From an uncultured Eubacterium sp. (GTDB taxonomy: Bacteria > Bacillota > Clostridia > Peptostreptococcales > Anaerovoracaceae): a DNA stretch of 64,000 nt. This document shows positions 5,966 through 56,393 of the stretch, one piece after another (position 1 is the first letter of the stretch; each line of letters begins with the position of its first letter). The stretch spans positions 62,001 to 126,000 of the forward strand of contig CAMNSS010000004.1 in the NCBI GenBank assembly GCA_946555345.1, written 5' to 3'. The position numbers and the translations under genes are program-made. Below the pieces are notes generated by a model. The model was given only the letters and a program-made list of their open reading frames with translations, had not been told where the DNA came from and ran no database searches.

Positions 5966-6832
5966 ATGCCGGAAAGGATCGTAAAAATAAAATCCGTCAG
6001 AAGTGACGGGGAAGTATTTGAATATGAGGGCGATGACTGGAAAGTCACCTCGCTTGAGGGCTTGGATTTTCCGAAATTTGAGATTGACAAAAAGAACAGG
6101 GGATACGGGAATGGATCCATTATCACTGGAAAACGAAAAGAAGCACGCGACATTGACATCGTGGCGCGGAAGCTTAACCGGGACAACAACGTATTTGACC
6201 GCCCCGTGGTGATAGGATTCCACAACAGCAATTACACGTTTGACCTGTTTTTTGACTACATGGGCATTACCCGGATTGCGCGAGGGTGTCAGCTCCAAGG
6301 GGCAAAATGTCCTACCGGAAATGTATATGATGCGCTGGTGCTTACCGTGTCATACCTGCACCCTGAATCTGACCTGCTCGGTGAAGGCAGCGAATCAGCC
6401 AGCTTTGCGGCGGTCAATCCGATGTGGCACGTTACAAGGGCATATGCGCCGGGCGGCGGAAAGCTGCTGTACGGCGTAATTAACCACGCCACCCAAAAAG
6501 TAGTCAATTACCTGGGGTCGGAGGACACGTACGTCAAAATAACGGTTGAGGCGACCGGCCTTGTCCAGGGCGTGACGGTTGGAATCGGCGAAATATCAGC
6601 TACTGTCCATGTCATGCTTGCATCAGGGGACATCCTCGAAATCGACAGTGAGAAAAAGACCGTGGCGGTGAATGGGGCGGACGTTCCGCCAGCCAGCTAC
6701 GATGGCGAATCTGTGCCAAAGCTGATATTGGCTTACGGTGATAATGTCGTGACAGTTAAGGACGCGACAGACGAGGGCAACACTGCTTTTGATGCGGAAC
6801 TTACTTATACAGGACGATACGGAGGCTTGTAA
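5966..6832 (+). CDS. Distal tail protein (Dit/siphovirus tail component)
   Basis: A 288-residue protein directly after the tape measure, which is the standard position of the distal tail protein that joins the tail tube to the baseplate. The N-terminal half shows the Dit-like pattern GLDFPKFEIDKKNRGYGNG followed by a beta-rich RDIDIVARKLNRD segment; the C-terminal half is a galectin-like beta domain. It overlaps the next start by one base (TAATG). Confidence 0.7.
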   Translation: MPERIVKIKSVRSDGEVFEYEGDDWKVTSLEGLDFPKFEIDKKNRGYGNGSIITGKRKEARDIDIVARKLNRDNNVFDRPVVIGFHNSNYTFDLFFDYMGITRIARGCQLQGAKCPTGNVYDALVLTVSYLHPESDLLGEGSESASFAAVNPMWHVTRAYAPGGGKLLYGVINHATQKVVNYLGSEDTYVKITVEATGLVQGVTVGIGEISATVHVMLASGDILEIDSEKKTVAVNGADVPPASYDGESVPKLILAYGDNVVTVKDATDEGNTAFDAELTYTGRYGGL

Positions 6833-8025
6833 TGTTAATGGCAACAGATTACGCTGGCGAACCATTAGGCAACATAGATTTTATCGAGGCAAGCTGGGAC
6901 AGGAGATGGAGCGGGCCGGGCGAATTTATGGTCTGGCTGCCCCTTGCGGAATACATGAGGCTCGACGGGCTGGGAATAAAATATGTCGAAAATGTAGGAA
7001 GGCCGGAGCGCGGAATCATACAGAAGACAGAATACAGCAGGGAGCAAGACGGCGCATTTGTCACCATATCAGGGCATTTTGTTGACGCGATGCTAAACTT
7101 TGGCGCATACCGCAAGACACAGGTTATCAGCGCGGGCAGCCAAGCCGCCGTAAAAAACGCAATCATATCATATATCAATAACTGTATTGCGGCGGTATCC
7201 GTGGATGGCGTGGCGTACACGCCGCTAAAATCGGTTTCGGTTGATTCCGCATCCGTGTTCCCCACGGTGGTGGGCAGTTCTATCGATCCAGACCAGCAGA
7301 TGGGCGAGGCCATTTATAACGTTTTGTCCGGGAGCGGTTACGGAATTGTTACGTCAGTATCGGATTACCCCGCCCAAAACGGGACGGGAAGCGTTGGGCT
7401 GGAAGTGAAATTTATCCAAGGCAAGCAGCGCACAGAGGGAGACGGGGCTGTACATTTTGGCAAGGCATACAACAACGTGGATGACATGAGATATACGCTC
7501 GACGAATCCGCCGAATGCTGCCTGTATGAGGTCCTGCAGGAAGTCGGGGCTGAATATTACAACAGCTTTTCGGCTGCATATTTCCCGATAAGATTTACGG
7601 AAACCCAGGACGGCGAGACGAAGCATTACATCGGCTGCACGTACTTTTACGGCGGCAACCGACCATCAAGGCTGGGGCAGTGCTGCCCGAAAAGGATATT
7701 GAAGACGTCGCTCTCATCAGACGAGTGCGACCTGAAAGTGACGACGGCGGCAAACCAGCAGAAAATAAAAAAACTCATGCAGAAGAAGGCGCAGCTCGAC
7801 ATGCTGGACCATTACAAGGTCGAGGCAATATCCGCCAACGTGATACAGGAACGCTTTTTGTACATGCAGGATTACGACCTCGGCGACGTGTGCGCGGTGC
7901 TGATTGACGACCTCGGGCAGCTGTACCATGCGAGGATAGAGGAGGTCAACGAAACGCACAAGGACAACAGGATTGACGTTGAGCTTGTGCTGGGGACGCC
8001 AAGCAGGCAGAAATGGAGGAAATGA
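6832..8025 (+). CDS. Tail-associated protein (ReqiPepy6 Gp37-like)
   Basis: A 397-residue protein in the tail-associated lysin/hub slot. It contains GNIDFIEASWDRRWSGPGEF near the N-terminus and CYLYEVLQEVG-like helices in the middle, and ends with a GDVCAVLIDDLG...ARIEEV segment typical of the siphovirus ReqiPepy6 Gp37-like family. It probably forms the baseplate hub. I see no peptidase or muramidase motif, so cell-wall cleavage is left to the endolysin. Confidence 0.65.
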   Translation: MLMATDYAGEPLGNIDFIEASWDRRWSGPGEFMVWLPLAEYMRLDGLGIKYVENVGRPERGIIQKTEYSREQDGAFVTISGHFVDAMLNFGAYRKTQVISAGSQAAVKNAIISYINNCIAAVSVDGVAYTPLKSVSVDSASVFPTVVGSSIDPDQQMGEAIYNVLSGSGYGIVTSVSDYPAQNGTGSVGLEVKFIQGKQRTEGDGAVHFGKAYNNVDDMRYTLDESAECCLYEVLQEVGAEYYNSFSAAYFPIRFTETQDGETKHYIGCTYFYGGNRPSRLGQCCPKRILKTSLSSDECDLKVTTAANQQKIKKLMQKKAQLDMLDHYKVEAISANVIQERFLYMQDYDLGDVCAVLIDDLGQLYHARIEEVNETHKDNRIDVELVLGTPSRQKWRK

Positions 8026-8828
8026 TGGCAATCATGAGCTACCCGTTTGAATCGCTCAACACGGGGACGCCGGACGAGCCCGTTTATGACAGGGCGATCA
8101 CGGCGGAGATGGAACGGACGTTCAACAGGCTGCGTTACACGAACGGGGTGTTCAGCTCCGTCGGCGACGCGCTTGCGGTGACGGCGAACGGCAGCATGGG
8201 CGTGGCGGTCGGGACGGGCGGATGCCACGTTGAGGGCGCGCTCATGTACAACACCGCACCGCTGAGGCTGACGCTTGAGGCGGCCGATGCCTCGCTTGCC
8301 CGCATTGACCGGGTGGTGGCGCGGTTCAACACGTCCACAAGCGTCAGGGCGGTCATTATTGTAGCAAAAACAGGGCAGGCGGCGACCAACCCGGTGCCGC
8401 CGGATCTCGTGCGGCAGCCAAATTTTTACGAAATTGCCCTTGCCGACATATACGTGAAGAAAGGCGCCGCATCAGTCGCGGCGTCGGCAATAACCGACCA
8501 GCGGCTCAATTCCGCGCTGTGCGGCTTTGCCGTGGCAGCTGTCCCGACGCCCGTGGACACGTCAGGCCTCTGGGAGCAGTACCAGGCATCGCTTAATGAA
8601 TGGCTTAGCACGGTGGCATCCGCCCTGGACGGGACGCTCGCAGGCAATTTGCAGGGCCAGGTCACGGCGCTCAAGACGCGCCTTGATGCAGAGGAAACCA
8701 GGGTGCAGCCCATCGCAAGGGGAGGCACGGGTGCAACGACCGTGGCAAAGGCGCAGGAGAACCTGGGCATCGCAATATCCGCTGAAACGGTAAAAATGTT
8801 CGCGGATGCGGGATACCCAATAACGTAA
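8025..8828 (+). CDS. Baseplate / tail fibre protein
   Basis: Three in-frame ATGs lie at 8022, 8025 and 8034. GGAGG at 8015-8019 gives the best spacing to 8025, so that start is chosen (267 residues). The N-terminal 160 residues form a beta-rich baseplate-type domain; the C-terminal portion has a helical stretch and ends with RGGTGATTVAKAQENLGI, a motif repeatedly found where phage fibres trimerise or attach receptor-binding tips. A host-recognition role is inferred. Confidence 0.65.
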   Translation: MAIMSYPFESLNTGTPDEPVYDRAITAEMERTFNRLRYTNGVFSSVGDALAVTANGSMGVAVGTGGCHVEGALMYNTAPLRLTLEAADASLARIDRVVARFNTSTSVRAVIIVAKTGQAATNPVPPDLVRQPNFYEIALADIYVKKGAASVAASAITDQRLNSALCGFAVAAVPTPVDTSGLWEQYQASLNEWLSTVASALDGTLAGNLQGQVTALKTRLDAEETRVQPIARGGTGATTVAKAQENLGIAISAETVKMFADAGYPIT

Positions 8829-19335: not shown

Positions 19336-20229
19336 ATGGATAGAGCAAGAAAGACTGTTAACTGTTGCAAGACAATATTTGCATGGAGTTTTGGCATAGC
19401 CGCTATCGTCTTTTTAATTACAGGCATAAAATTTATTATTACTGATAGTGCAAGTTTGTTTTTATGGATATCGATGTGGGCTATGCTCGCAAGCGATGTA
19501 TTGTTTTTTATTGCTTTTTTTGTAGCAGAGGCATTGCCAAAAGGAAAAACGGGCTTTGGGGCAGATGGGATTAAGGCAACAGGCGATCCACCAGCCAGCA
19601 ATTATGGTGCGCTGGTTTCTGATCTGTCAAAAGATATTTTAAAAAAAGCGTTAAAAAAGACAGGCAACCCTGTCAAAAAAAGGGCGGGGTGGATGAATGA
19701 CCATTTAAAAAGATATATTGGAGATAATTTTTTCGTATGGCCTGTTTCACGCATATTCATTTTAGAGAGCAAAAAAAGAGGAGGTAAAGCAATAAGAACT
19801 TATCTGATGGTGTTAGGGAAACGATACAAATACATAGAAAGCATGGGACATGAGGAATATCCGCTGGCAGAGCGGATCACATCTTTAGATGAATTTTTGA
19901 AGGACAGTCTCCTTGATGGAGAGAAACTCAGCTACAAAAACGAAGCTTTTTGTATAGAAGCGGCAAACTATGCACTTTGTTACTATGTAGAAGCATATCG
20001 AAAGAACCCTGATAAAAAGTGTTACATGGATCAGGGTAAACCGAAAGTGGAAGCGCTATATAATAATGGTGCGTCGAAAGCATTTGATAAATTGCAACAT
20101 GAATTCAGCACAAACCATGATGTGATAGAAAAAGTATTTCATGACATGAATGATGAAAACTATGAAATAATTTATCCGAATGCCAGGGAAAGATTCGTAG
20201 CATTGTGCAATAAGCTTTATGAGTTGTAA
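19336..20229 (+). CDS. Membrane-anchored hypothetical protein
   Basis: A 297-residue protein. Two membrane helices lie at residues about 13-34 and 40-64; the rest is a soluble, lysine-rich cytoplasmic domain that starts with an amphipathic segment (DILKKALKKTGNPVKKRAG). AT-rich codon use (ATA, AAA, TTA) differs from the GC-richer genes on both sides, which hints at a separate origin. It is the first gene right of the insertion site. I recognise no family. Confidence 0.6.
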   Translation: MDRARKTVNCCKTIFAWSFGIAAIVFLITGIKFIITDSASLFLWISMWAMLASDVLFFIAFFVAEALPKGKTGFGADGIKATGDPPASNYGALVSDLSKDILKKALKKTGNPVKKRAGWMNDHLKRYIGDNFFVWPVSRIFILESKKRGGKAIRTYLMVLGKRYKYIESMGHEEYPLAERITSLDEFLKDSLLDGEKLSYKNEAFCIEAANYALCYYVEAYRKNPDKKCYMDQGKPKVEALYNNGASKAFDKLQHEFSTNHDVIEKVFHDMNDENYEIIYPNARERFVALCNKLYEL

Positions 20230-20378: not shown

Positions 20379-21635
20379 ATGGCATATCACGAGCTGATCA
20401 AAAACTTCAACAAAATCAGGGAATGCATGAAGCAGTTTTACGTATACGGCTTCAACAGCCGTAGCGGGTATGATGCGAAAAGCGCACGCAGCTACGATAA
20501 TGAGCGCAGGCGGATCGAAAGCTGGCTCGGCGATTATATGTCGTTCCGGCAGGAAGAATCGGGCAAGGTGTCGTTTCTGTCGGTCGATACGCGGGAAATC
20601 AAGAAAAATCCACTTTACAACGCATTCAAAGCGAAGAGCTTTACCGCCAACGACATCATGCTGCATTTTTACCTGCTCGATATTTTAGCGCCCGTTTCCG
20701 GAGGGATGGGTGCAGGGGAGATCACAGAAGCGGTTTTGCGCCGATACCTTTCCTTTTTTGAAGGCGCAGAGCCGATCGATATTTCCACCGTGCGCAAGAA
20801 GCTGAAAGAATACGAAAAGCTGGGAATTTTAAAGAGCGTGCGGAAAGGAAACAGGATACTTTACAGCATGAGCGCGGATGTGGAAATCGGGCAAGGATTG
20901 GAAGCTGCGCTGTGCTTTTTCTCCGAAGCAGACCCGCTTGGCATGACAGGCTCGTTTATCTTGGACAAGCTGCGGCATACGGAACAGGATTTCTTCCGTT
21001 TCAAGCACCATTACATATTGCACGCGTTTGAAAACGATGTGCTGTACAGTTTGCTCGACGCAATCCGCCAAAGGAAAAAAGCACGGCTGCGCATCATGGC
21101 GCACAAGGCTGGCGCAGGATATTCCGTCGATATTTTACCATTGAAAATATACATCAGCACGCAGAATGGCAGGCGGTATGTGCTGGGATACGAGTATGCA
21201 AGAAGCAAATTCAACTTGTTCCGGCTGGATCGCATCGAAACGGCCGGATTGCAGGGTGCAGAGCCAAACTGGGATGAATACGCACGGGATGCAGCGGAAT
21301 TTGCAAAGCCTCTTTGGGGTGTAGCATTTCATCGGGATTTGCATACTGAGCATTTGGAAATGACATTGTGCATCGAGCCTTGGGAAACATATATCCTCGG
21401 AAGGCTTGTGCGGGAAGGGCGGCATGGCGTGATCGAGAAGTTGGACGATACCCATTATCGATATGCCATCGATGTATACAGCGCAGAGGAAATGCTGCCG
21501 TGGATCAGGAGCTTTACGGGCAGGATTGCCAGCCTTTCCTGTTCCAATGAGGAGATCACGCAGCGGTTTTATGACGACCTTGAAGCGATGATGGAGATGT
21601 ACCGGGACGGAGGGGAGCAGGATGTTATTTCATGA
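20379..21635 (+). CDS. WYL-domain transcriptional regulator 1
   Basis: ATG 20379 follows GGGGAGG; the frame extends further left without a ribosome site. The 418-residue product has a winged-helix-like middle (STVRKKLKEYEKLGILKSV) and a WYL domain around residues 235-330, where the phrase GRRYVLGYEYARSKFNLFRL corresponds to the WYL core, and a WCX-type C-terminus. WYL domains bind nucleic-acid ligands and regulate RNA-repair and defence genes. Its stop overlaps the start of the second WYL gene by 14 bases. Confidence 0.85.
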   Translation: MAYHELIKNFNKIRECMKQFYVYGFNSRSGYDAKSARSYDNERRRIESWLGDYMSFRQEESGKVSFLSVDTREIKKNPLYNAFKAKSFTANDIMLHFYLLDILAPVSGGMGAGEITEAVLRRYLSFFEGAEPIDISTVRKKLKEYEKLGILKSVRKGNRILYSMSADVEIGQGLEAALCFFSEADPLGMTGSFILDKLRHTEQDFFRFKHHYILHAFENDVLYSLLDAIRQRKKARLRIMAHKAGAGYSVDILPLKIYISTQNGRRYVLGYEYARSKFNLFRLDRIETAGLQGAEPNWDEYARDAAEFAKPLWGVAFHRDLHTEHLEMTLCIEPWETYILGRLVREGRHGVIEKLDDTHYRYAIDVYSAEEMLPWIRSFTGRIASLSCSNEEITQRFYDDLEAMMEMYRDGGEQDVIS

Positions 21636-22560
21636 GATATACGGCAGCTATTATCAGATCGTATCGCTGATTATAGAAGAAGCCGTAAAAAAGCAGCATA
21701 TCGCCCTTGATGATATATACCGCATTGTGGGGGATTACGGATTCGGCGAAAGCTTTCTGCATATCCCGGATGCGCTGAGGAGCGGGGAGTGGAAGCTTTT
21801 GGCGGAGGATGGCAGTACGCCGATACAGTCAGCACCTCATATGCCACTTACAACGATGCAAAAACGCTGGTTAAAAGCTATCTTAGGGGATCGCCGGATC
21901 GGGCTGTTTTTGGCAGGCGAGGAGGAGCGGAAGCTGCGGGAGCAGTTAGAAGAAGCCGATGCGCTGTATGCACAGGATGCGATCGTATATTTTGACCGAT
22001 ATGCAGATGGCGACCCGTATGGGGATGAGGCGTACCGGGAGAACTTTCGGACGATTCTGAAAGCGCTTTATGATAAGAGGCGGCTTAAAATCCAGTTCAC
22101 GTCGCAGCGGGGAAAGCGCCATACTTGGCGGGCTGTCCCGCAGAGGCTTGAATATTCGGCAAAGGATGACAAATTCAGGCTGCGGATCATCGGCAGGCTC
22201 AGGCCGGACACGATCAATGTCGCCAGGATCAGCAAATGCGAGCTTTTGGATGCGTATTGTGCCTCCGGTATCAAAGAATATAGCGACGGTGAAGAGCGGG
22301 TGGTCTTAGCGCTTGTCGATGAGCGGAATGCGCTGGAGCGGGCGATGCTGCATTTTTCAAATTTGAAAAAGGAGACACAGCGGCTGGATGATCGGCGATA
22401 CCGGTTGACGTTGCACTACTATAAAGAAGACGAGACGGAAATCCTGATCAGGGTCATGTCCTTTGGGCCGATGATCAAAGTGATTGCCCCGGCTTCCTTT
22501 GCCGGGCAGATGCGGGACAGGCTAAAGCGGCAATATCAATGGAAGAATGCGGATGCATAG
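21622..22560 (+). CDS. WYL-domain transcriptional regulator 2
   Basis: A 312-residue protein overlapping the previous gene by 14 bases, so the pair is probably co-translated. The WYL domain covers about residues 140-225 (LKIQFTSQRGKRHTWRAVPQ; RLEYSAKDDKFRLRIIGRLR), followed by a WCX-type domain (RVMSFGPMIKVIAP). The N-terminal 100 residues are not a clear helix-turn-helix. Two adjacent WYL proteins usually act as a heteromeric regulator of the next operon, here the DUF2828-RtcB-RlaP genes. Confidence 0.85.
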   Translation: MLFHEIYGSYYQIVSLIIEEAVKKQHIALDDIYRIVGDYGFGESFLHIPDALRSGEWKLLAEDGSTPIQSAPHMPLTTMQKRWLKAILGDRRIGLFLAGEEERKLREQLEEADALYAQDAIVYFDRYADGDPYGDEAYRENFRTILKALYDKRRLKIQFTSQRGKRHTWRAVPQRLEYSAKDDKFRLRIIGRLRPDTINVARISKCELLDAYCASGIKEYSDGEERVVLALVDERNALERAMLHFSNLKKETQRLDDRRYRLTLHYYKEDETEILIRVMSFGPMIKVIAPASFAGQMRDRLKRQYQWKNADA

Positions 22561-22692
22561 CTTGGCTTCGCAAGCAGAAAATGGCATATCGGAGATTGCT
22601 TTCCATGAAGCGCGCATTCATGGGGCGTACGCCATTTATCGGGCAGAAATTGATATACTGGGGCGGTCTGCATGAAAGGAATAAAACGCTGG

Positions 22693-22728
22693 ATATGGCA
22701 AAATGAGCGAAATGCTATGCCATATTTT
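22693..22728 (+). terminator. Hairpin after the WYL pair
   Basis: ATATGGCA (22693-22700) pairs with TGCCATAT (22718-22725), then TTTT. It would separate WYL transcription from the RNA gene and the repair operon. Confidence 0.55.
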
Positions 22729-22807
22729 GGATGTTTTCGTCTTTCATGCAGGCCGCTTCTTTTTCTGTTCGCAACTTTTTTTCCACGATTTAGCAATCTG
22801 TGTCTGG

Positions 22808-22813
22808 TATGAT
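22808..22813 (+). promoter_or_regulatory. Extended -10 element before the tRNA-like RNA
   Basis: TGGTATGAT (22805-22813) is a good extended -10, about 46 bases ahead of the tRNA-like domain. No proper -35 is visible, which would fit an activator-dependent promoter. No sigma-54 -24/-12 pair is seen. Confidence 0.4.
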
Positions 22814-22858
22814 GAATGCGTAAGAAAGATACCGGCAGCAAAACACAAACATACTAAG

Positions 22859-23038
22859 GCCCGTTTAGCTCATGGGAGAGCATCCGGTTTCGGACCGGAG
22901 GAAAGTAGGTTCGAATCCTACAGCGGATATAGCGGTATCTTGTCAAAAAGGCACATACAGCAAACGAAGAATCTGTCTAAAAGGACACGCCTTTGCGGGA
23001 AACTGCTGTCTGGCGTTTGCAATGTGCCTTGTTTTTTT
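22859..23038 (+). ncRNA. tRNA-like / Y-RNA-like non-coding RNA
   Basis: 22859-22928 folds as a cloverleaf: D stem GCTC/GAGC, anticodon stem TCCGG/CCGGA with loop TTTCGGA (UCG anticodon position), variable GGAAA, T stem GTAGG/CCTAC with loop TTCGAAT. The acceptor stem GCCCGTT/AGCGGAT is poor at its tip (G-U, C-A) and no CCA is encoded, so it is a tRNA mimic rather than a tRNA. It is followed by a long stem, 22948-22966 with 23014-23030, and seven T (23032-23038), a Rho-independent end. The DUF2828 (Ro60-like) gene starts 15 bases later. Known bacterial Y RNAs (YrlA type) also carry a tRNA-like module and are encoded beside Ro60 and RtcB. Confidence 0.8.
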
Positions 23039-23053
23039 CAGGAGGTTGCAGCA

Positions 23054-24520
23054 ATGTTGGAATTTTTAAAGAAAACGGCGAACAGGGCTTTGACGGAAAA
23101 TCATGCGGCGGCATACAGCACTACGGAGTCGGACTGCTTGGATTTGTTCGCTTCGATCGGGGCGTTCCGGCAACAGAACGATGGCGCGATCATTGCCGCC
23201 TTTCAGCGGGCATATGCGGAAAATCCAGGCCTGGCGATGAAGATATTGTTTTACAGCAGGGATATCAGAGGCGGGCTGGGCGAAAGAAGGACGTTTCGCG
23301 TTATCATCAACTGGCTTGCCCAAAGCAAGCCTGAATCCGTGAAGAAAAACCTTATGCATATCGCCGGATTTGGCAGGTACGACGACCTTCTTTGCTTGCT
23401 CGGCACAGCCTGTGAAGCGGAAGCGCTGGATTACATACAAGAGCAATTTCAAGCGGATCTAAAAGCCTTGGAAAGCGGCGAGCCTGTCTCCCTCTTGGGC
23501 AAGTGGCTGCCGTCGGTCAACGCGAGCAGCAAGGAAACGGCCAAGAAGGCGAAGCGCATCGCGCGGGCTTTCGGCATGAACGATGCTGCGTACCGCAAGG
23601 CGCTCAGCAGGCTCAGGGCGTCGATCGGAATCATAGAGAACAAGCTGCGGGAGAGGGACTATTCCTTTGACTACGCGAAGCAGCCCTCCAAGGCGATGTT
23701 CAAATACAGGCAGGCGTTCATCCGAAACGATGCGGACAGATACCGTGCGTTTTTGCAAAGCGTCCGTTGCGGCAAGGCCAGGCTTCATGCGGAAACGCTC
23801 ATGCTGTATGAGATTATCGCTCCTGTGATGAGTTGGGGCGTATCGCCGCCTTCGCAGATACAAAAGAATGCGGTGGATGCTGCGTGGTACAGCTTGGCTG
23901 ATTTCACGGACGGGGAAAATGCGATCGCAGTCGTGGACGGGTCGGGTTCGATGTACGCCTATCGCAATCCAATGCCGGTCTCCGTTGCGCTTTCGTTGGG
24001 GATTTACTTTGCCGAGCGGAATCGGGGCGCGTTTCACAATCATTTTATCACCTTTTCGGAAAATCCACAGCTGGTGGAAATCAAGGGGCAGGATATCGTC
24101 GATAAGGTGAATTATTGCATGGGGTATGGGGAAATCGCTTCCACGAACATCCAGAAGGTGTTCGAACTGATTTTGGATGCCGCCGTGAACAATCGCGTTC
24201 CGCAGAAACAGCTTCCGAAGACCATATATATCATTTCCGACATGGAATTTGACGCCTGCCCCTGTGATGCAGGGATGACGAATTTTGCGTATGCGAAAAA
24301 ACGCTTTGCAAACTACGGCTACCAGCTGCCGCAGGTCGTCTTCTGGAATGTAGCTTCCAGGAACGGGCATCAGCCGGTGACGATGAATGAGCAGGGCGTC
24401 GTGCTTGTTTCCGGTTGTACGCCGCGGATCTTTTCCATGGTCGTAAAGGAAAAGGCCACGCCGTATGAATTTATGATGAAGGTTTTAACCAGCGGGCGGT
24501 ATGATTGCATTGCCGCCTGA
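23054..24520 (+). CDS. DUF2828 protein: TROVE/Ro60-like with vWA domain
   Basis: ATG 23054 has CAGGAGG upstream; the open frame to its left runs through the RNA gene and is not coding. The 488-residue product has an N-terminal alpha-helical repeat region (about 1-285, e.g. LGERRTFRVIINWLA; FGRYDDLLCLLG) and a C-terminal von Willebrand A domain with the metal-site motif DGSGSMY near residue 293 and a second metal-site region at SDMEFD. This is the build of Ro60-type RNA-binding rings. It likely binds the adjacent tRNA-like RNA and hands damaged RNA to the ligase encoded 12 bases downstream. Confidence 0.85.
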   Translation: MLEFLKKTANRALTENHAAAYSTTESDCLDLFASIGAFRQQNDGAIIAAFQRAYAENPGLAMKILFYSRDIRGGLGERRTFRVIINWLAQSKPESVKKNLMHIAGFGRYDDLLCLLGTACEAEALDYIQEQFQADLKALESGEPVSLLGKWLPSVNASSKETAKKAKRIARAFGMNDAAYRKALSRLRASIGIIENKLRERDYSFDYAKQPSKAMFKYRQAFIRNDADRYRAFLQSVRCGKARLHAETLMLYEIIAPVMSWGVSPPSQIQKNAVDAAWYSLADFTDGENAIAVVDGSGSMYAYRNPMPVSVALSLGIYFAERNRGAFHNHFITFSENPQLVEIKGQDIVDKVNYCMGYGEIASTNIQKVFELILDAAVNNRVPQKQLPKTIYIISDMEFDACPCDAGMTNFAYAKKRFANYGYQLPQVVFWNVASRNGHQPVTMNEQGVVLVSGCTPRIFSMVVKEKATPYEFMMKVLTSGRYDCIAA

Positions 24521-24532
24521 TGAGGAGGAATT

Positions 24533-25741
24533 ATGATTGAAGTAAAGGGAACATACAATACAGCGATCTGTTATTGCAGCGAGCTGGAAAAGTCCGCCGC
24601 TGGGCAGATAAAGGCGGTCTGCGACTGTGAGGCGTTTGCTGGAAGCAGGATCAGGATCATGCCGGATGTACACGCTGGCATGGGATGCACGATCGGGACG
24701 ACGATGACGATAGACGATAAAGTCGTTCCGGGCATGGTAGGCGTCGATATCGGCTGCGGCATGGAAACGGTAAAGATCAGGGAAACGTCACTGGATTTTG
24801 AGAAGCTCGACCAGCTCATTCGGCGCGAGATCCCTTTTGGGCGGGATATCAGAAGCGATGCGCATCCGTTCAATGGTGAAATCGACTTGCAGGCGCTTTG
24901 CTGTGCAAGGCACGTGAACCTGGAACGCGCACGGAGAAGCATCGGTACGCTGGGCGGCGGCAATCATTTCATCGAGGTGAACCGGGATGAGGCGGGCGCA
25001 TTGTACCTCGTCGTCCATTCAGGAAGCCGCCATCTGGGAAATGAAGTGGCGAAGTATTACCAAAATGAAGGCTTCCGTGCGCTTTGCGGGAACGCGCGTT
25101 TTCAGATCGACGAAATGATTGCAGAGATGAAGGCGCAGGGAAGGAGCAAGGAAATCAATAAGAAGCTGAAACAGCTTCGAAAAGAACGTGCGCTGGCAAC
25201 GCCAGTGCCGAAGGATCTGGCGTACGTGGAGGGCGCATTATTCGATGACTACCTTCATGACATGAAGCTCATCCAGCGCTTTGCCGCATTGAACCGAAAG
25301 GCGATGGTGGAGGTGATCGTAGCGGGGATGTGCGTTACGGTAGAAGAGCAGTTTACGACGATCCACAATTATATCGATACGGATGAGATGATTTTAAGGA
25401 AGGGCGCGATTTCTGCCAAGAAGGGGGAAAAGATTCTCATCCCGATTAATATGCGGGATGGAAGCCTGGTTTGCATCGGAAAGGGAAATGAAGCGTGGAA
25501 CTGCTCTGCTCCGCATGGGGCTGGCAGGCTCATGAGCAGGAAGGAAGCACTTGATTCGCTGACGATGGAACGGTACAGGCAGGAGATGGAGGGCATCTAC
25601 ACGACGTGCATCAGCAGGAGGACGCTTGATGAAGCCCCGATGGCATATAAACCGATTGGGGAGATCAGGGAGCAGATCGAGCCTGCAGCTGAAATCATCG
25701 CGCAGATTAAACCCCTGTATAATTTCAAGGCGGAAGACTAG
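24533..25741 (+). CDS. rtcB: RtcB-type RNA-splicing ligase
   Basis: A 402-residue protein joining 2',3'-cyclic-phosphate (or 3'-phosphate) and 5'-OH RNA ends with Mn2+ and GTP. Visible motifs: PDVHAGMGCTIG (about residue 43), VGVDIGCGM (metal-binding Asp and Cys), LGGGNHFIE (metal-binding His), HSGSRHLG, and APHGAGRLMSR with the guanylated His. The length is that of the shorter RtcB class often found in repair operons. It starts 12 bases after the DUF2828 stop behind GAGGAGG. No archease or RtcA gene is nearby. Confidence 0.95.
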   Translation: MIEVKGTYNTAICYCSELEKSAAGQIKAVCDCEAFAGSRIRIMPDVHAGMGCTIGTTMTIDDKVVPGMVGVDIGCGMETVKIRETSLDFEKLDQLIRREIPFGRDIRSDAHPFNGEIDLQALCCARHVNLERARRSIGTLGGGNHFIEVNRDEAGALYLVVHSGSRHLGNEVAKYYQNEGFRALCGNARFQIDEMIAEMKAQGRSKEINKKLKQLRKERALATPVPKDLAYVEGALFDDYLHDMKLIQRFAALNRKAMVEVIVAGMCVTVEEQFTTIHNYIDTDEMILRKGAISAKKGEKILIPINMRDGSLVCIGKGNEAWNCSAPHGAGRLMSRKEALDSLTMERYRQEMEGIYTTCISRRTLDEAPMAYKPIGEIREQIEPAAEIIAQIKPLYNFKAED

Positions 25742-26058
25742 AAACGCAGGGCTTCGCTAAGAGGCTGGCAGGGTATGGGGGCTTGCGGGCAGGGAATTCG
25801 ACAAGCAGCATTGCTTTCAATGGAAGATTGCGGGCGGTAAGGATGGTGTAGGGAAGGCACAGAAGCAAAAATGCAGGTGATTGGAAAAATGAGGCTGTTT
25901 TGGATAACTGCTTGCGGGTAGGAAGCCAGAAAAGCGGTGCGGCTTTGGATGGATTTGCGGGCAGGGGTGAAAATCGCAGTGCCGTTTTAAGTAGGTGCTT
26001 GCGGTCTGCAACAATGGCGCATGAGCATAACAATGCTTGCGAGGGGAGGTGCAAAAGC
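25742..26058 (+). other. Purine-rich spacer inside the repair operon
   Basis: 317 bases without a supported gene. It is built of degenerate G/A-rich words such as GCTTGCGGGCAGG and GCTTGCGGGTAGG. An open frame runs through it into the next gene but has no ribosome site. No clear promoter or terminator, so the next gene may still be co-transcribed. Confidence 0.5.
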
Positions 26059-26835
26059 ATGGAAATGAAAATCTTAGATGCGCTGAAGCGGATTGAAAAA
26101 TCGGAAACCGTGAAGATTTTGATGGCGGTTGAATCCGGCAGCCGGGCTTGGGGGGTTGCCTCGCCGGATAGCGATTATGATGTGCGTTTTATTTATAAAA
26201 GGCCGATGGCGGAATACCTGCGGCTTGAAAAGACGAGGGATGTGATTGAACTTCCCCTCGATGAAGTGTTCGATATCAACGGCTGGGATTTGTCCAAGGC
26301 GCTCCGGCTCATGCATCATTCCAATCCGGGTTTATTCGAATGGATCGGATCGCCGATACGGTATCTCGATACGGATTTTACAAAACGGCTCTCGGAGCTT
26401 GCAGCACGGTATTTTCTGTCCAAAAGCGGCATTTATCATTACCTGAATATGGCGGCGGGAAATTATAAGCGGCATTTTACGGGGGATCAGGTAGCGTTAA
26501 AGAAGTATTTCTATGTAATCAGGCCGCTGCTTGCCTGCCGCTGGGTTTTAGAAAATGGAACGCCGCCGCCGGTGCTTTTTCAAAGGCTTTTGGATTGCCA
26601 GCTCGATGATCAATACAGAAGTCTTGTGGATGAGCTTTTGGAAATCAAGACGTGTTCGCCTGAAATTAAAGAAATCACGAGGATTGAACCGCTGGATCGT
26701 TATATTGAGCAGAGCATCCGTGAAATTGAAGCGGCTGCATCCGCGATGCCGAAACGGGAAAAAATTGGCTGGGAAGCGCTCAATGCGGCTTTCCGGGAGG
26801 AGATTTGTGCAGAGGGAACAGGCTCTTTTATATGA
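26059..26835 (+). CDS. RlaP-like nucleotidyltransferase (RNA-repair associated)
   Basis: GAGGGGAGGT is 8 bases before ATG 26059 (258 residues). The polymerase-beta-type active site is clear: GSRAWG followed by SDYDVRF at about residues 27-45. The rest (WDLSKALRLMHHSNPGLFEW; YYFYVIRPLLACRW-like helix) matches the large nucleotidyltransferase family described as RNA-ligase-associated polymerase, encoded beside RtcB or RNA ligases. It may add nucleotides to damaged RNA ends before sealing. The placement right after rtcB supports this. Confidence 0.75.
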   Translation: MEMKILDALKRIEKSETVKILMAVESGSRAWGVASPDSDYDVRFIYKRPMAEYLRLEKTRDVIELPLDEVFDINGWDLSKALRLMHHSNPGLFEWIGSPIRYLDTDFTKRLSELAARYFLSKSGIYHYLNMAAGNYKRHFTGDQVALKKYFYVIRPLLACRWVLENGTPPPVLFQRLLDCQLDDQYRSLVDELLEIKTCSPEIKEITRIEPLDRYIEQSIREIEAAASAMPKREKIGWEALNAAFREEICAEGTGSFI

Positions 26836-53732: not shown

Positions 53733-56393
53733 ATGAAAGAATTTTATCAGATGACCGCAGAACAGGCTAGAATGCAGGTCAATGGTTCGCTAGAGCCTTT
53801 AACGGAGGAACAGGTAAAGGAAAATCGTGAAAAATATGGGCCAAATGCGTTGCTCGAAGGACGGAAGAAATCAGCAGTACGCATCTTTTTAGAGCAGTTT
53901 GCGGATTTTCTCGTCATCATCCTCATCATTGCGGCGATCGTGTCGGGGGCGCTGGGCGATGCGGAAAGCGCCATCGTTATCCTGGTCGTGATTACCATCA
54001 ACGCCATCCTGGGTACGGTGCAGACGCTGAAAGCGGAACAGTCTTTAGACAGCCTGAAAAAAATGTCAGCGCCCGAAGCGAAGGTGTTGCGCGGCGGGCA
54101 GTTCGTTAAAATTCCTGCGGCCGATATTACGGTAGGGGATCTGGTAAGCCTGGAGGCAGGCGATTTCGTTCCAGCGGATGGGCGGATTACGGCAAATGCA
54201 GGCATGAAGATCGACGAAAGCGCATTGACGGGGGAAAGCCTGGGGGTGGAGAAGGAGCTTGCGGCAATCGAAGGAAAAGCGCCGCTTGGTGATCGGCGCA
54301 ACATGGTGTATTCCGGCAGTTTCGTCACGTATGGGCGCGGCGAATTCCTGGCAACCTCTATCGGGATGGAGACGGAAGTAGGGAAAATCGCATCGCTTTT
54401 GAAAAACACTTCCGAAAAGAAGACGCCGTTACAGGCCAACCTGGATAACTTCGGCAAGAAGCTTTCTATCCTGATCCTTATTTTCTGCGGGATTCTGTTC
54501 GCAATCAGCGTCTTCCGGGGAGAACCGGCGGCGGATGCGTTTATGTTTGCTGTCGCGCTGGCGGTGGCGGCAATCCCAGAAGCGTTAAGCTCGATCGTTA
54601 CCATCGTGCTATCCTTCGGCACGCAGAAAATGGCGAAGGAGCATGCGATCATCAGGAAGCTGCAAGCGGTTGAAGGCTTGGGCAGCGTATCCGTTATCTG
54701 TTCTGATAAAACGGGGACTCTGACGCAGAACAAGATGACCGTAGCGGATTATTACGTTTGCGGCAGGAAGGCTGCAGTGGATCAGCTCGATTTAAGCCAT
54801 GCGGAAGAATTGCAGCTTTTGCAGGCTAGCATGCTGTGCAATGACGCATCGAAATCATCCGGCAAGGATATCGGCGATCCGACGGAAACCGCCCTCATCG
54901 ATGTCGGCGTGAGGCTGGAAAGGCCATATGAAACGGAGCGGGCGGAAAACGAGCGAATCGGTGAAATTCCATTTGATAGCGACAGGAAGCTCATGTCCAC
55001 TTGCCATAAGATGAAAGACGCTTACGGTCCGCGCATTGCAGCGGGCGGCACGGTGATGCTGACCAAGGGTGCAGTTGATGTTCTCTTGAAGCGGGTGACA
55101 GAAATACAGACGGCGGAAGGAATCCGGGCAATCGGCCGGGAGGACAGGGAACAGATCGAAGCTTGTAACGAGGGATTTTCCCGAAATGGGCTGCGTGTGC
55201 TGGCCTTCGCATATAAAGAGGTTGCGGAAGATTTTCAGCCGGATGTGGCGGATGAAAGCGGCATGGTCTTTTTAGGGCTGGTGTCGATGATGGACCCGCC
55301 GCGGGAGGAATCAATGGAGGCAGTCGCAGAGTGCATCAGCGCTGGAATCAAGCCGGTCATGATTACGGGCGACCATAAGGTGACAGCGGCGGCTATCGCC
55401 GCAAAGATCGGCATTTTAAAGGATGAATCGGAGGCGGCAGAGGGAGCCGTGATAGATGATATGAGCGATGAGCAGCTGCGGGAATACGTGGAGGGTATTT
55501 CGGTCTATGCCAGGGTTTCGCCGGAGCATAAGATCAGGATCGTCCGAGCGTGGCAGGATAAAGGCAATATCGTCGCCATGACTGGGGACGGCGTCAACGA
55601 TGCGCCTGCTTTGAAACAGGCGGATATCGGCGTAGCGATGGGCATTACGGGAAGTGAGGTTTCCAAAGATGCGGCGGCGATGGTATTGACCGATGATAAT
55701 TTCGCTACCATCGTCAAAGCGGTGGAAAACGGCAGGAACATTTACCAGAACATTAAAAATTCGATCTTATTCTTGCTTTCGGGCAATTTCGGCGCAATTT
55801 TGGCGGTGCTGTATGCGTCGGTGTTTGCATTGCCTGTGCCGTTTGCCCCGGTTCACCTGCTGTTCATCAACTTGCTGACTGACAGCCTGCCAGCGATCGC
55901 TTTGGGGCTTGAACCGCACAGCAAGGATTTGATGCGCGAAAAACCGCGCCCAGCGAATGAATCCATCTTAACGAAATCGTTTCTGGCGAAGATCGGCATC
56001 GGCGGGCTTTCGATCTGCACGATGACGGTGATCGCCTTCCTGATGGGGCTGAACGGCTGGTTTACGGCAGGCGCACTAGGCGGGGGCGCGCTTTCCGCCA
56101 GCACGATGGCGTTTGGCACGCTGTGCATGAGCCGCTTGTTTCACGGGTTTAACTGTAAGTCCGATAAGCCGGTCGTATTTACGAAAGCAGTGGCAAACAA
56201 TAAGTGGCTGATCGGCGCTTTCGTGCTGGGCATGGCGTTGATTACCTGCGCCTTGTGCATTCCTGCGCTGAGCAGCGTTTTTAAGGTCGTGCCGCTTGGC
56301 GTTTCACAGCTTCTGACCGTTTATGGGCTGGCGTTCCTCAACATCCCGGTGATCCAGTTTATAAGCTGGATGCGGACGAGGCGGGTGAAATAG
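53733..56393 (+). CDS. P-type cation-transporting ATPase (P2A-like)
   Basis: GGAAG before ATG 53733 (886 residues). Motifs: LTGESLGVEKE (dephosphorylation), SDKTGTLTQNKM (phosphorylated Asp), TGDGVNDAPALKQADIG (hinge), and AVAAIPEALSSIVTIV in the ion-binding helix 4. The family includes calcium pumps, but the manganese riboswitch in front argues that this one exports Mn2+ (perhaps with Ca2+). Ten membrane helices. Monocistronic, ended by the inverted repeat at 56586-56650. Confidence 0.93.
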   Translation: MKEFYQMTAEQARMQVNGSLEPLTEEQVKENREKYGPNALLEGRKKSAVRIFLEQFADFLVIILIIAAIVSGALGDAESAIVILVVITINAILGTVQTLKAEQSLDSLKKMSAPEAKVLRGGQFVKIPAADITVGDLVSLEAGDFVPADGRITANAGMKIDESALTGESLGVEKELAAIEGKAPLGDRRNMVYSGSFVTYGRGEFLATSIGMETEVGKIASLLKNTSEKKTPLQANLDNFGKKLSILILIFCGILFAISVFRGEPAADAFMFAVALAVAAIPEALSSIVTIVLSFGTQKMAKEHAIIRKLQAVEGLGSVSVICSDKTGTLTQNKMTVADYYVCGRKAAVDQLDLSHAEELQLLQASMLCNDASKSSGKDIGDPTETALIDVGVRLERPYETERAENERIGEIPFDSDRKLMSTCHKMKDAYGPRIAAGGTVMLTKGAVDVLLKRVTEIQTAEGIRAIGREDREQIEACNEGFSRNGLRVLAFAYKEVAEDFQPDVADESGMVFLGLVSMMDPPREESMEAVAECISAGIKPVMITGDHKVTAAAIAAKIGILKDESEAAEGAVIDDMSDEQLREYVEGISVYARVSPEHKIRIVRAWQDKGNIVAMTGDGVNDAPALKQADIGVAMGITGSEVSKDAAAMVLTDDNFATIVKAVENGRNIYQNIKNSILFLLSGNFGAILAVLYASVFALPVPFAPVHLLFINLLTDSLPAIALGLEPHSKDLMREKPRPANESILTKSFLAKIGIGGLSICTMTVIAFLMGLNGWFTAGALGGGALSASTMAFGTLCMSRLFHGFNCKSDKPVVFTKAVANNKWLIGAFVLGMALITCALCIPALSSVFKVVPLGVSQLLTVYGLAFLNIPVIQFISWMRTRRVK

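Follow-up and report, generated by a model that had tools for sequence, protein, structure and literature searches.

A variant of the Ro60-Y RNA-RtcB system built on DUF2828, with closing-stem RNA elements that may act as anticodon decoys

What kind of RNA system is encoded where two WYL regulators, a tRNA-like sequence, a DUF2828 protein and the RNA ligase RtcB lie side by side? The question is raised by a locus within a 64,000-nucleotide stretch of DNA (hereafter the window) from an uncultured Eubacterium sp. (GCA_946555345.1, contig CAMNSS010000004.1, positions 62,001 to 126,000). An earlier, sequence-only reading placed six features on one strand, and WYL, WYL, cloverleaf, DUF2828, RtcB and RlaP are indeed all on the + strand. 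It overlooked a promoter motif, a second RNA element and the longer element of which the cloverleaf is a part; the cluster thus runs WYL1, WYL2, RNA element 1, RNA element 2, DUF2828, RtcB and RlaP. The analyses below show a system that is real, widespread and coherent and that represents a variant of the Ro60-Y RNA-RtcB type.

RNA elements with a closing stem

The gap 5' of DUF2828 contains two copies of one RNA element. The element's own two ends form a closing stem of 7-9 bp, a CAGCAA strand is located 3 nt inside it, and the remainder is a variable payload. A representative order is the stem AAGGCAC, three bases, CAGCAA, the payload and the stem's complement, in most cases followed by TTGT. 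The cloverleaf of the sequence-only reading is present; it is not a single RNA, as had been supposed, but a payload within this Y-RNA-like element family.

Conservation was assessed in 90 bacterial loci, comprising the best 80 of 558 by DUF2828 similarity, 11 relatives from the same order and the window, minus two duplicates; because of this similarity-based selection the loci are not independent samples. The stem pattern AARRYRC, which permits eight stem variants and was derived from the same loci on which it was counted, occurs 226 times on the DUF2828 strand and three times on the opposite strand, with 2.15 expected. A YTTGT site lies downstream of 175 of these 5' halves, and 140 of the 175 pair fully with it, compared with 73 (maximum 85) in a re-paired control. 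The 86 halves that were dropped (51 without YTTGT downstream and 35 incompletely paired) leave 140 strict bacterial elements. All eight permitted stem variants occur, which, together with the excess of paired ends, amounts to compensatory change. The three-base spacing from stem to CAGCAA is constant in 140/140 strict elements (the pattern permitted 0 to 3). When the stem letters were left free, the DUF2828 strand contained 661 CAGCAA sites, of which 250 had an exact 7-nt complement within 186 nt of the core downstream, against 22.1 (maximum 31) when partners were dealt anew; on the opposite strand 2 of 421 sites were paired, with 4.9 expected. At least one element lies near DUF2828 in 85 of the 90 loci, a paired element being absent from five, one of them truncated by a contig end. 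The 73 loci with strictly paired elements contain one to five each, and the shortest elements are 47 nt. In locus L040 (about 8410-8520) a bacterial permuted tRNA-like sequence, recognized by eye, carries the variant core AACTGCAA in place of ACAGCAA; the element catalogue is therefore incomplete.

Independent tests of the element were provided by viral contigs, phage isolates and two surveys blind to DUF2828. The viral set comprised 80 IMG/VR contigs (the best of 535 DUF2828 relatives), of which 75 remained after removal of near-duplicates. In this out-of-sample test 190 of 696 CAGCAA sites were paired, versus 10.1 expected (maximum 17), while the opposite strand gave 4 of 409 versus 5.5. Elements occur in 65 of the 75 fetched stretches and display more than 40 stem variants; as the 190 viral elements were selected on an exact 7-nt stem, about 10 of them are expected by chance. 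DUF2828 itself was found in 680 phage records. Nine of 12 phage isolates, hand-picked from two match lists, contain elements beside DUF2828: Listeria P100, mycobacteriophage Lumos, Escherichia coli phage warpig, Campylobacter CP30A, Fusobacterium Fnu1, Staphylococcus S-CoN_Ph5, Enterococcus EfV12, Bacillus FADO and Bacillus BcoS-136. In warpig (MN850637.1) elements are located at about 53986-54051 and 54152-54276. Isolate matches number 32 on the DUF2828 strand and three on the opposite strand, some of them doubtful and inside genes. Of the blind surveys, one covered 391 genomes and located the AAGGCAC form in two of them; the other covered 297 and located the exact promoter motif in two. Each match adjoins DUF2828, although both surveys overlooked most DUF2828 genomes. 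No Rfam 15 family matches the whole element, by gathering scores in the window and nine relatives or by E-values in the gap and four phage loci.

The 13-base core of the promoter motif is present on the DUF2828 strand, in one copy each, in 53 of the 90 loci, with two copies on the opposite strand. In 23 of the 53 copies a -10-like hexamer is found at a constant offset of 39 from the motif core. An element follows the motif within 200 nt in 44 loci, and in 26 of these it starts 52-58 nt past the motif. The motif, the -10 offset and the motif-to-element spacing indicate that transcription probably starts at the first RNA, and expression of the elements is predicted from this conserved promoter. 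The exact 17-base motif is missing in 10 of the 12 DUF2828 genomes of the order.

A Ro60-like protein and its gene neighbourhood

The proposal that DUF2828 takes the Ro60 role is borne out by its AlphaFold2 model, which matches Ro60/TROVE proteins over almost the full length; the best ten structural matches all belong to this group. The model displays the Ro60/TROVE arrangement of a helical-repeat ring followed by a vWA domain. D295, S297 and S299, invariant across 10 sequences, conform to DxSxS, the metal-site motif of vWA domains. The Pfam TROVE model did not match DUF2828 (E <= 0.01), the matches being to DUF7788, DUF2828 and, weakly, VWA_2. The protein is therefore Ro60-like by fold and outside the TROVE sequence family. 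A profile search against solved structures gave nothing useful (best E 1).

At the level of DNA sequence the elements are Y RNAs in the wide sense, with a stem formed by both ends beside a Ro60-like gene. Fold, stem and co-location suggest that DUF2828 and the elements probably constitute a Y-RNA-like ribonucleoprotein (RNP), the anatomy of which is well supported. DUF2828 would bind the Y RNA-like stem, as its modelled Ro60 fold and its co-location with the elements suggest. The literature search returned no paper combining RtcB and DUF2828, the latter appearing in four papers, which by their titles all concern plants.

The association of the genes is not due to chance, and its predicted conservation across genomes is confirmed. 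Within 6 kb of DUF2828, WYL1 is found in 65 of the 90 bacterial loci, WYL2 in 66, RtcB in 57 and RlaP in 12; in the 48 loci with sufficient flank the corresponding counts are 39, 39, 36 and 11. The RlaP-like enzyme recognized earlier is present in the window and, found at 12 of 90 loci, is an optional component. A DUF2828 relative occurs in 12 of 297 genomes of the order, including the window's own. Six fetched order loci display WYL1, WYL2 and the gap, followed by DUF2828 (in one, by RtcB and then DUF2828), and RlaP comes next in one of the six. WYL1 homologues with 40-53% identity are located 5' of WYL2 in six relatives, the WYL2 homologues following them. The best 80 of the 558 loci, from named genomes, bear mostly Clostridia labels, with Synergistaceae and a few others, and are largely metagenome-assembled genomes (MAGs). 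The window's RtcB is the sole copy found in its genome (96% complete). PADLOC and NCBIfam gave WYL matches, RtcB-type matches under the cut-off and weak others. Among nine proteins scanned around the cluster none matched an RtcR-type family, and none was RtcA, for which the rest of the genome was not searched. As had been suggested, a WYL pair occupies the position expected for RtcR; it may bind the promoter motif and may resemble the PafBC-type regulators of mycobacteria. In locus L042 (10216-11129) the WYL2 match is split into two overlapping pieces, perhaps by a frameshift. Upstream of WYL1 in the window, a 297-residue reading frame (19336-20229) has no Pfam match (E <= 0.01).

Table 1. Features of the DUF2828 cluster in the window
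Feature	Position	Strand	Remarks
WYL1 regulator	20379..21635	+	Pfam WYL 30.8 bits
WYL2/WCX regulator	21622..22560	+	Pfam WCX 25.6 bits (above cut-off), WYL 16.5 bits (below cut-off)
Conserved promoter motif, putative activator site	22768..22784	+	TTCGCAACTTTTTTTCC; only exact copy in the genome
Putative extended -10	22805..22813	+	TGGTATGAT; -10-like hexamer at a fixed offset from the motif core
RNA element 1	22826..22943	+	closing stem AAGATACCG/CGGTATCTT, CAGCAA strand, tRNA-like payload
tRNA-like payload of element 1	22859..22929	+	anticodon TCG, no CCA, 6/7 acceptor pairs (G-U counted)
RNA element 2	22948..23032	+	closing stem AAGGCACAT/ATGTGCCTT, ACAGCAA strand, payload without recognized anticodon or T arm
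DUF2828/DUF7788 protein, Ro60-like (helical repeats and vWA)	23054..24520	+	PF11443 and DUF7788
RtcB RNA ligase	24533..25741	+	Pfam RtcB 216.7 bits; PHROG tRNA splicing ligase E 1.6e-133
RlaP-family nucleotidyltransferase	26059..26835	+	Pfam RlaP 284.5 bits; start set at the beginning of the family match

The cluster shares with Salmonella rsr-yrlBA-rtcBA, as described in the available parts of two reports, the conjunction of a Ro60-fold protein, a tRNA-mimic RNA with a two-end stem, and RtcB (PMC7790460, PMC8394870). It differs in having DUF2828 for Rsr, a WYL pair for RtcR/sigma-54 and another closing-stem signature, in the anticodon arms of some payloads and in the presence of RlaP at some loci. 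An end-to-end stem and a tRNA-like module are likewise shared with YrlA (RF02553). A permuted phage payload (L176 5356-5467) gives the best YrlA score in the four phage loci scanned, 50.3 bits against a gathering threshold of 69, with E 8e-11 when 201 bases were searched. L193 contains three further sub-threshold matches, and RF02553 had no match in the window's gap. Membership of the YrlA family was rejected, all scores being below the gathering threshold. Some payloads here, in contrast, are bare anticodon hairpins or linear tRNA-likes.

Anticodon arms in the payloads

The payload of element 1 is identified by ARAGORN as tRNA-Arg(tcg) and by the Rfam tRNA model at 55.5 bits (E 3e-09 in 64 kb). 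The genome yielded 22 tRNA matches; all but this one encode CCA, and none of the others has its TCG anticodon. A working tRNA-Arg gene was rejected on the basis of the missing CCA and the imperfect acceptor, although the 6/7 acceptor pairs by themselves would not exclude a functional tRNA.

Across the payloads hairpins with seven-base loops are strongly enriched. Loops of nine also exceed shuffles, partly because they contain seven-base loops, and sizes 4-6 and 8 are slightly above. With T-loops excluded, YTNNNRN loops closed by a 5-bp stem are present in 41/140 bacterial (mean of shuffles 1.84, maximum 8) and 46/190 viral elements (3.95, maximum 9); with a 4-bp stem the values are 51 (shuffle 5.8) and 60 (11.5), respectively. 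Hairpins bearing the exact loop of a real CCA-bearing tRNA occur in 27/140 bacterial (shuffle 0.82) and 33/190 viral elements (1.59). Lys(UUU) is the joint top anticodon in both sets, with many others following, and differing anticodons are found within one locus in 13 of 38 bacterial and 15 of 39 viral loci that have such loops. T arms are present in 35/140 bacterial (shuffle 0.3) and 41/190 viral elements (0.7). Overall, 66 of the 140 bacterial and 87 of the 190 viral elements contain an anticodon-like loop or a T arm.

Linear tRNA-likes were detected by ARAGORN in 17/140 bacterial and 6/190 viral elements. None of the 23 encodes CCA, which is more readily reconciled with bait or decoys than with a structural partner. 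Their acceptors have 2-7 of 7 pairs in the ARAGORN register, compared with 6-7 in the CCA-bearing tRNAs of the window's genome. When payload ends were joined, a tRNA spanning the junction appeared in 39 payloads and in none of three shuffled sets. By reading, up to 21 of the 39 (19 phage, 2 bacterial) are circular permutations, the rest being linear tRNAs that overrun the joint. Mimicry of rRNA as a general rule was rejected: rRNA-operon matches were obtained for 18/139 payloads versus 6/139 reversed (E <= 0.05), many of them to tRNA genes of the operons. Elements at L055 (about 7274-7354) and L061 (about 6451-6539) contain GTCAGGTAAGTTCTGACC, 89-90% identical to 23S rRNA over 19-20 bases. This stretch, presumably H71, is possibly a decoy for another RNase target.

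Decoys and alternative functions

The best reading of the system is that the RNAs held by DUF2828 are anticodon decoys that cannot be charged and that attract anticodon nucleases, with RtcB resealing the cuts; we put its probability at about 0.48. The cluster would then be a WYL-associated RNA-protection unit. Its conserved-motif promoter would start transcription near the first RNA element, the ends of the RNA close the 7-9 bp stem beside the CAGCAA strand, as sequence and compensatory stem changes show, and DUF2828 would bind that stem as Ro60 binds Y RNA, a set of events that we consider highly probable. In about a third of elements, as the statistics show, the payload displays an anticodon stem-loop, either by itself or as part of a degenerate or circularly permuted tRNA. 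Arms unfit for charging would lure anticodon nucleases, from toxins, rivals or phage-defence systems, off real tRNAs. These nucleases would leave a 2',3'-cyclic phosphate and a 5'-OH. RtcB joins the ends produced by anticodon-nuclease cuts and, with RlaP where present, may reseal both decoys and tRNAs. Luring and resealing together have slightly short of an even chance, and the earlier suggestion that the complex captures and reseals cut tRNAs is not established.

Retention of the anticodon arm with a weak or closed acceptor, seen in many elements, is as expected for decoys of anticodon nucleases. The occurrence of the system in many phages, frequently with genuine tRNA sets alongside, is consistent with protection from tRNA cleavage by the host. 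tRNA genes occur in 59 of the 80 viral loci. Arrays of 14 tRNA genes lie 3' of DUF2828 on the same strand at L038 (4119-5907), where most carry CCA as judged by eye, and at L071 (10200-11997); a replacement set may therefore travel with the decoys. Phage tRNAs that replace cleaved host tRNAs address the same threat, attack on tRNA (PMC7824862, in part available), but are meant for charging, whereas neither CCA nor a sound acceptor is present in the linear tRNA-likes here. ROT/TROVE proteins are also mentioned in connection with RNA repair in that survey of jumbo phages, the available text of which names neither DUF2828 nor a decoy (PMC7824862). Among phage Ro-like proteins, those of mycobacteriophage and Listeria P100 and CKA15 are DUF2828 relatives, several of them near tRNA genes.

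Several observations weigh against the decoy role. In 33 of the 90 bacterial loci (12 of the 48 with sufficient flank) no RtcB was detected within 6 kb, and the window's RtcB was matched in only 1 of the 80 viral loci, although annotations place divergent RNA ligases close to DUF2828 in Listeria P100 and CKA15 and Xanthomonas XbC2. Neither an anticodon-like loop nor a T arm is present in 74/140 bacterial and 103/190 viral elements, a group that includes element 2 of the window. Aeromonas Ah1 and Xanthomonas XbC2, two of the 12 isolates, have no element on the DUF2828 strand, and the sole match in Vibrio phage D486 is doubtful. The 48 loci with sufficient flank divide into 25 with WYL and motif, 14 with WYL only, three with the motif only and six with neither, so that the link between motif and WYL is loose (Fisher p 0.14). 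In Salmonella, according to the available part of the report, no YrlA fragments were detected and YrlA was not cut in those cells, so that it was itself no substrate of that nuclease; Hughes et al. raised competitive inhibition of anticodon nuclease by YrlA as a possibility (PMC7790460). Finally, the very abundant RNAs CKA15_059-061 of Listeria phage CKA15, proposed as Y RNAs, contain no ACAGCAA element.

In that phage the DUF2828 protein, CKA15_055, was recovered from purified particles (20 peptides, 57% coverage), a result on which the authors are cautious; they suggested an Rsr/Y RNA pairing and proposed abundant RNAs nearby as possible Y RNAs (PMC12282133, in part available). Those RNAs differ from the elements described here and were rejected as examples of them, ACAGCAA not being found in the stretch. 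Three elements lie directly 5' of CKA15_055, apart from CKA15_059-061; the available part of PMC12282133 therefore neither shows nor excludes their expression. The CKA15_059-061 stretch (L236 5440-6080), which lacks ACAGCAA, may contain a different RNA.

Rather unlikely is a function like that of Deinococcus Rsr/Y RNA/PNPase, in which DUF2828 would hold the stem while a nuclease or modification enzyme is brought in by the payload, the RNP degrading or checking damaged structured RNA. The protein fold and RNA plan are the same, permuted-tRNA phage elements give sub-threshold YrlA matches, and such a role is published for Rsr/YrlA (PMC8394870, in part available). YrlA, however, resembles the D, T and acceptor arms, without an anticodon arm (PMC8394870), while some elements here retain anticodon loops, and recruitment alone leaves the differing anticodons within single loci unexplained. 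It is improbable that cut halves of the anticodon-arm RNAs activate the WYL pair and so switch on repair. This would parallel RtcR, the activator of which is 5' tRNA halves carrying a cyclic phosphate (PMC7790460, available text), and the WYL pair adjoins the conserved promoter; however, the loose motif-WYL link argues against it, as does the finding that the window's WYL proteins, like its RlaP, were matched in none of the 80 viral loci, most of which have the RNAs. There is little likelihood that the elements are permuted or split tRNA genes, from which cleavage at the closing stem and ligation of the ends by RtcB would release a real tRNA. The circular permutations, unmatched in shuffled sets, and a discriminator-CCA seen by eye in the acceptor loop of several are consistent with such genes, but many payloads are too short for a tRNA, the linear tRNA-likes have weak acceptors and no CCA, and ordinary tRNA genes are already near many phage loci. 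A DNA inverted repeat serving recombination or mobility, with no RNA, would account for inverted repeats that flank variable inserts, up to five strict copies per locus, but is very improbable given the asymmetric core, the single fixed strand relative to DUF2828, the promoter-like motif just upstream, the tRNA folds within and the adjoining Ro60-like protein.

If the RNAs are decoys, the following may tentatively be proposed: a widespread RNP class, unreported in the literature searched, is common to many phages and to Firmicutes, along with Synergistaceae and other MAGs; DUF2828 would carry changing, non-chargeable anticodon-arm RNAs in an arms race with anticodon nucleases, RtcB renewing spent decoys. 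As many payloads retain the anticodon arm with a weak or closed acceptor, the competitive-inhibition idea for tRNA mimicry by Y RNAs becomes directly testable, in phages too (E. coli phage warpig and Bacillus phage FADO). DUF2828, named as a family of unknown function, can be assigned a fold, together with a probable RNA ligand and a probable pathway, which could account for its presence in many tRNA-carrying phages. If true, the system would be an RNA counterpart of decoy immunity.

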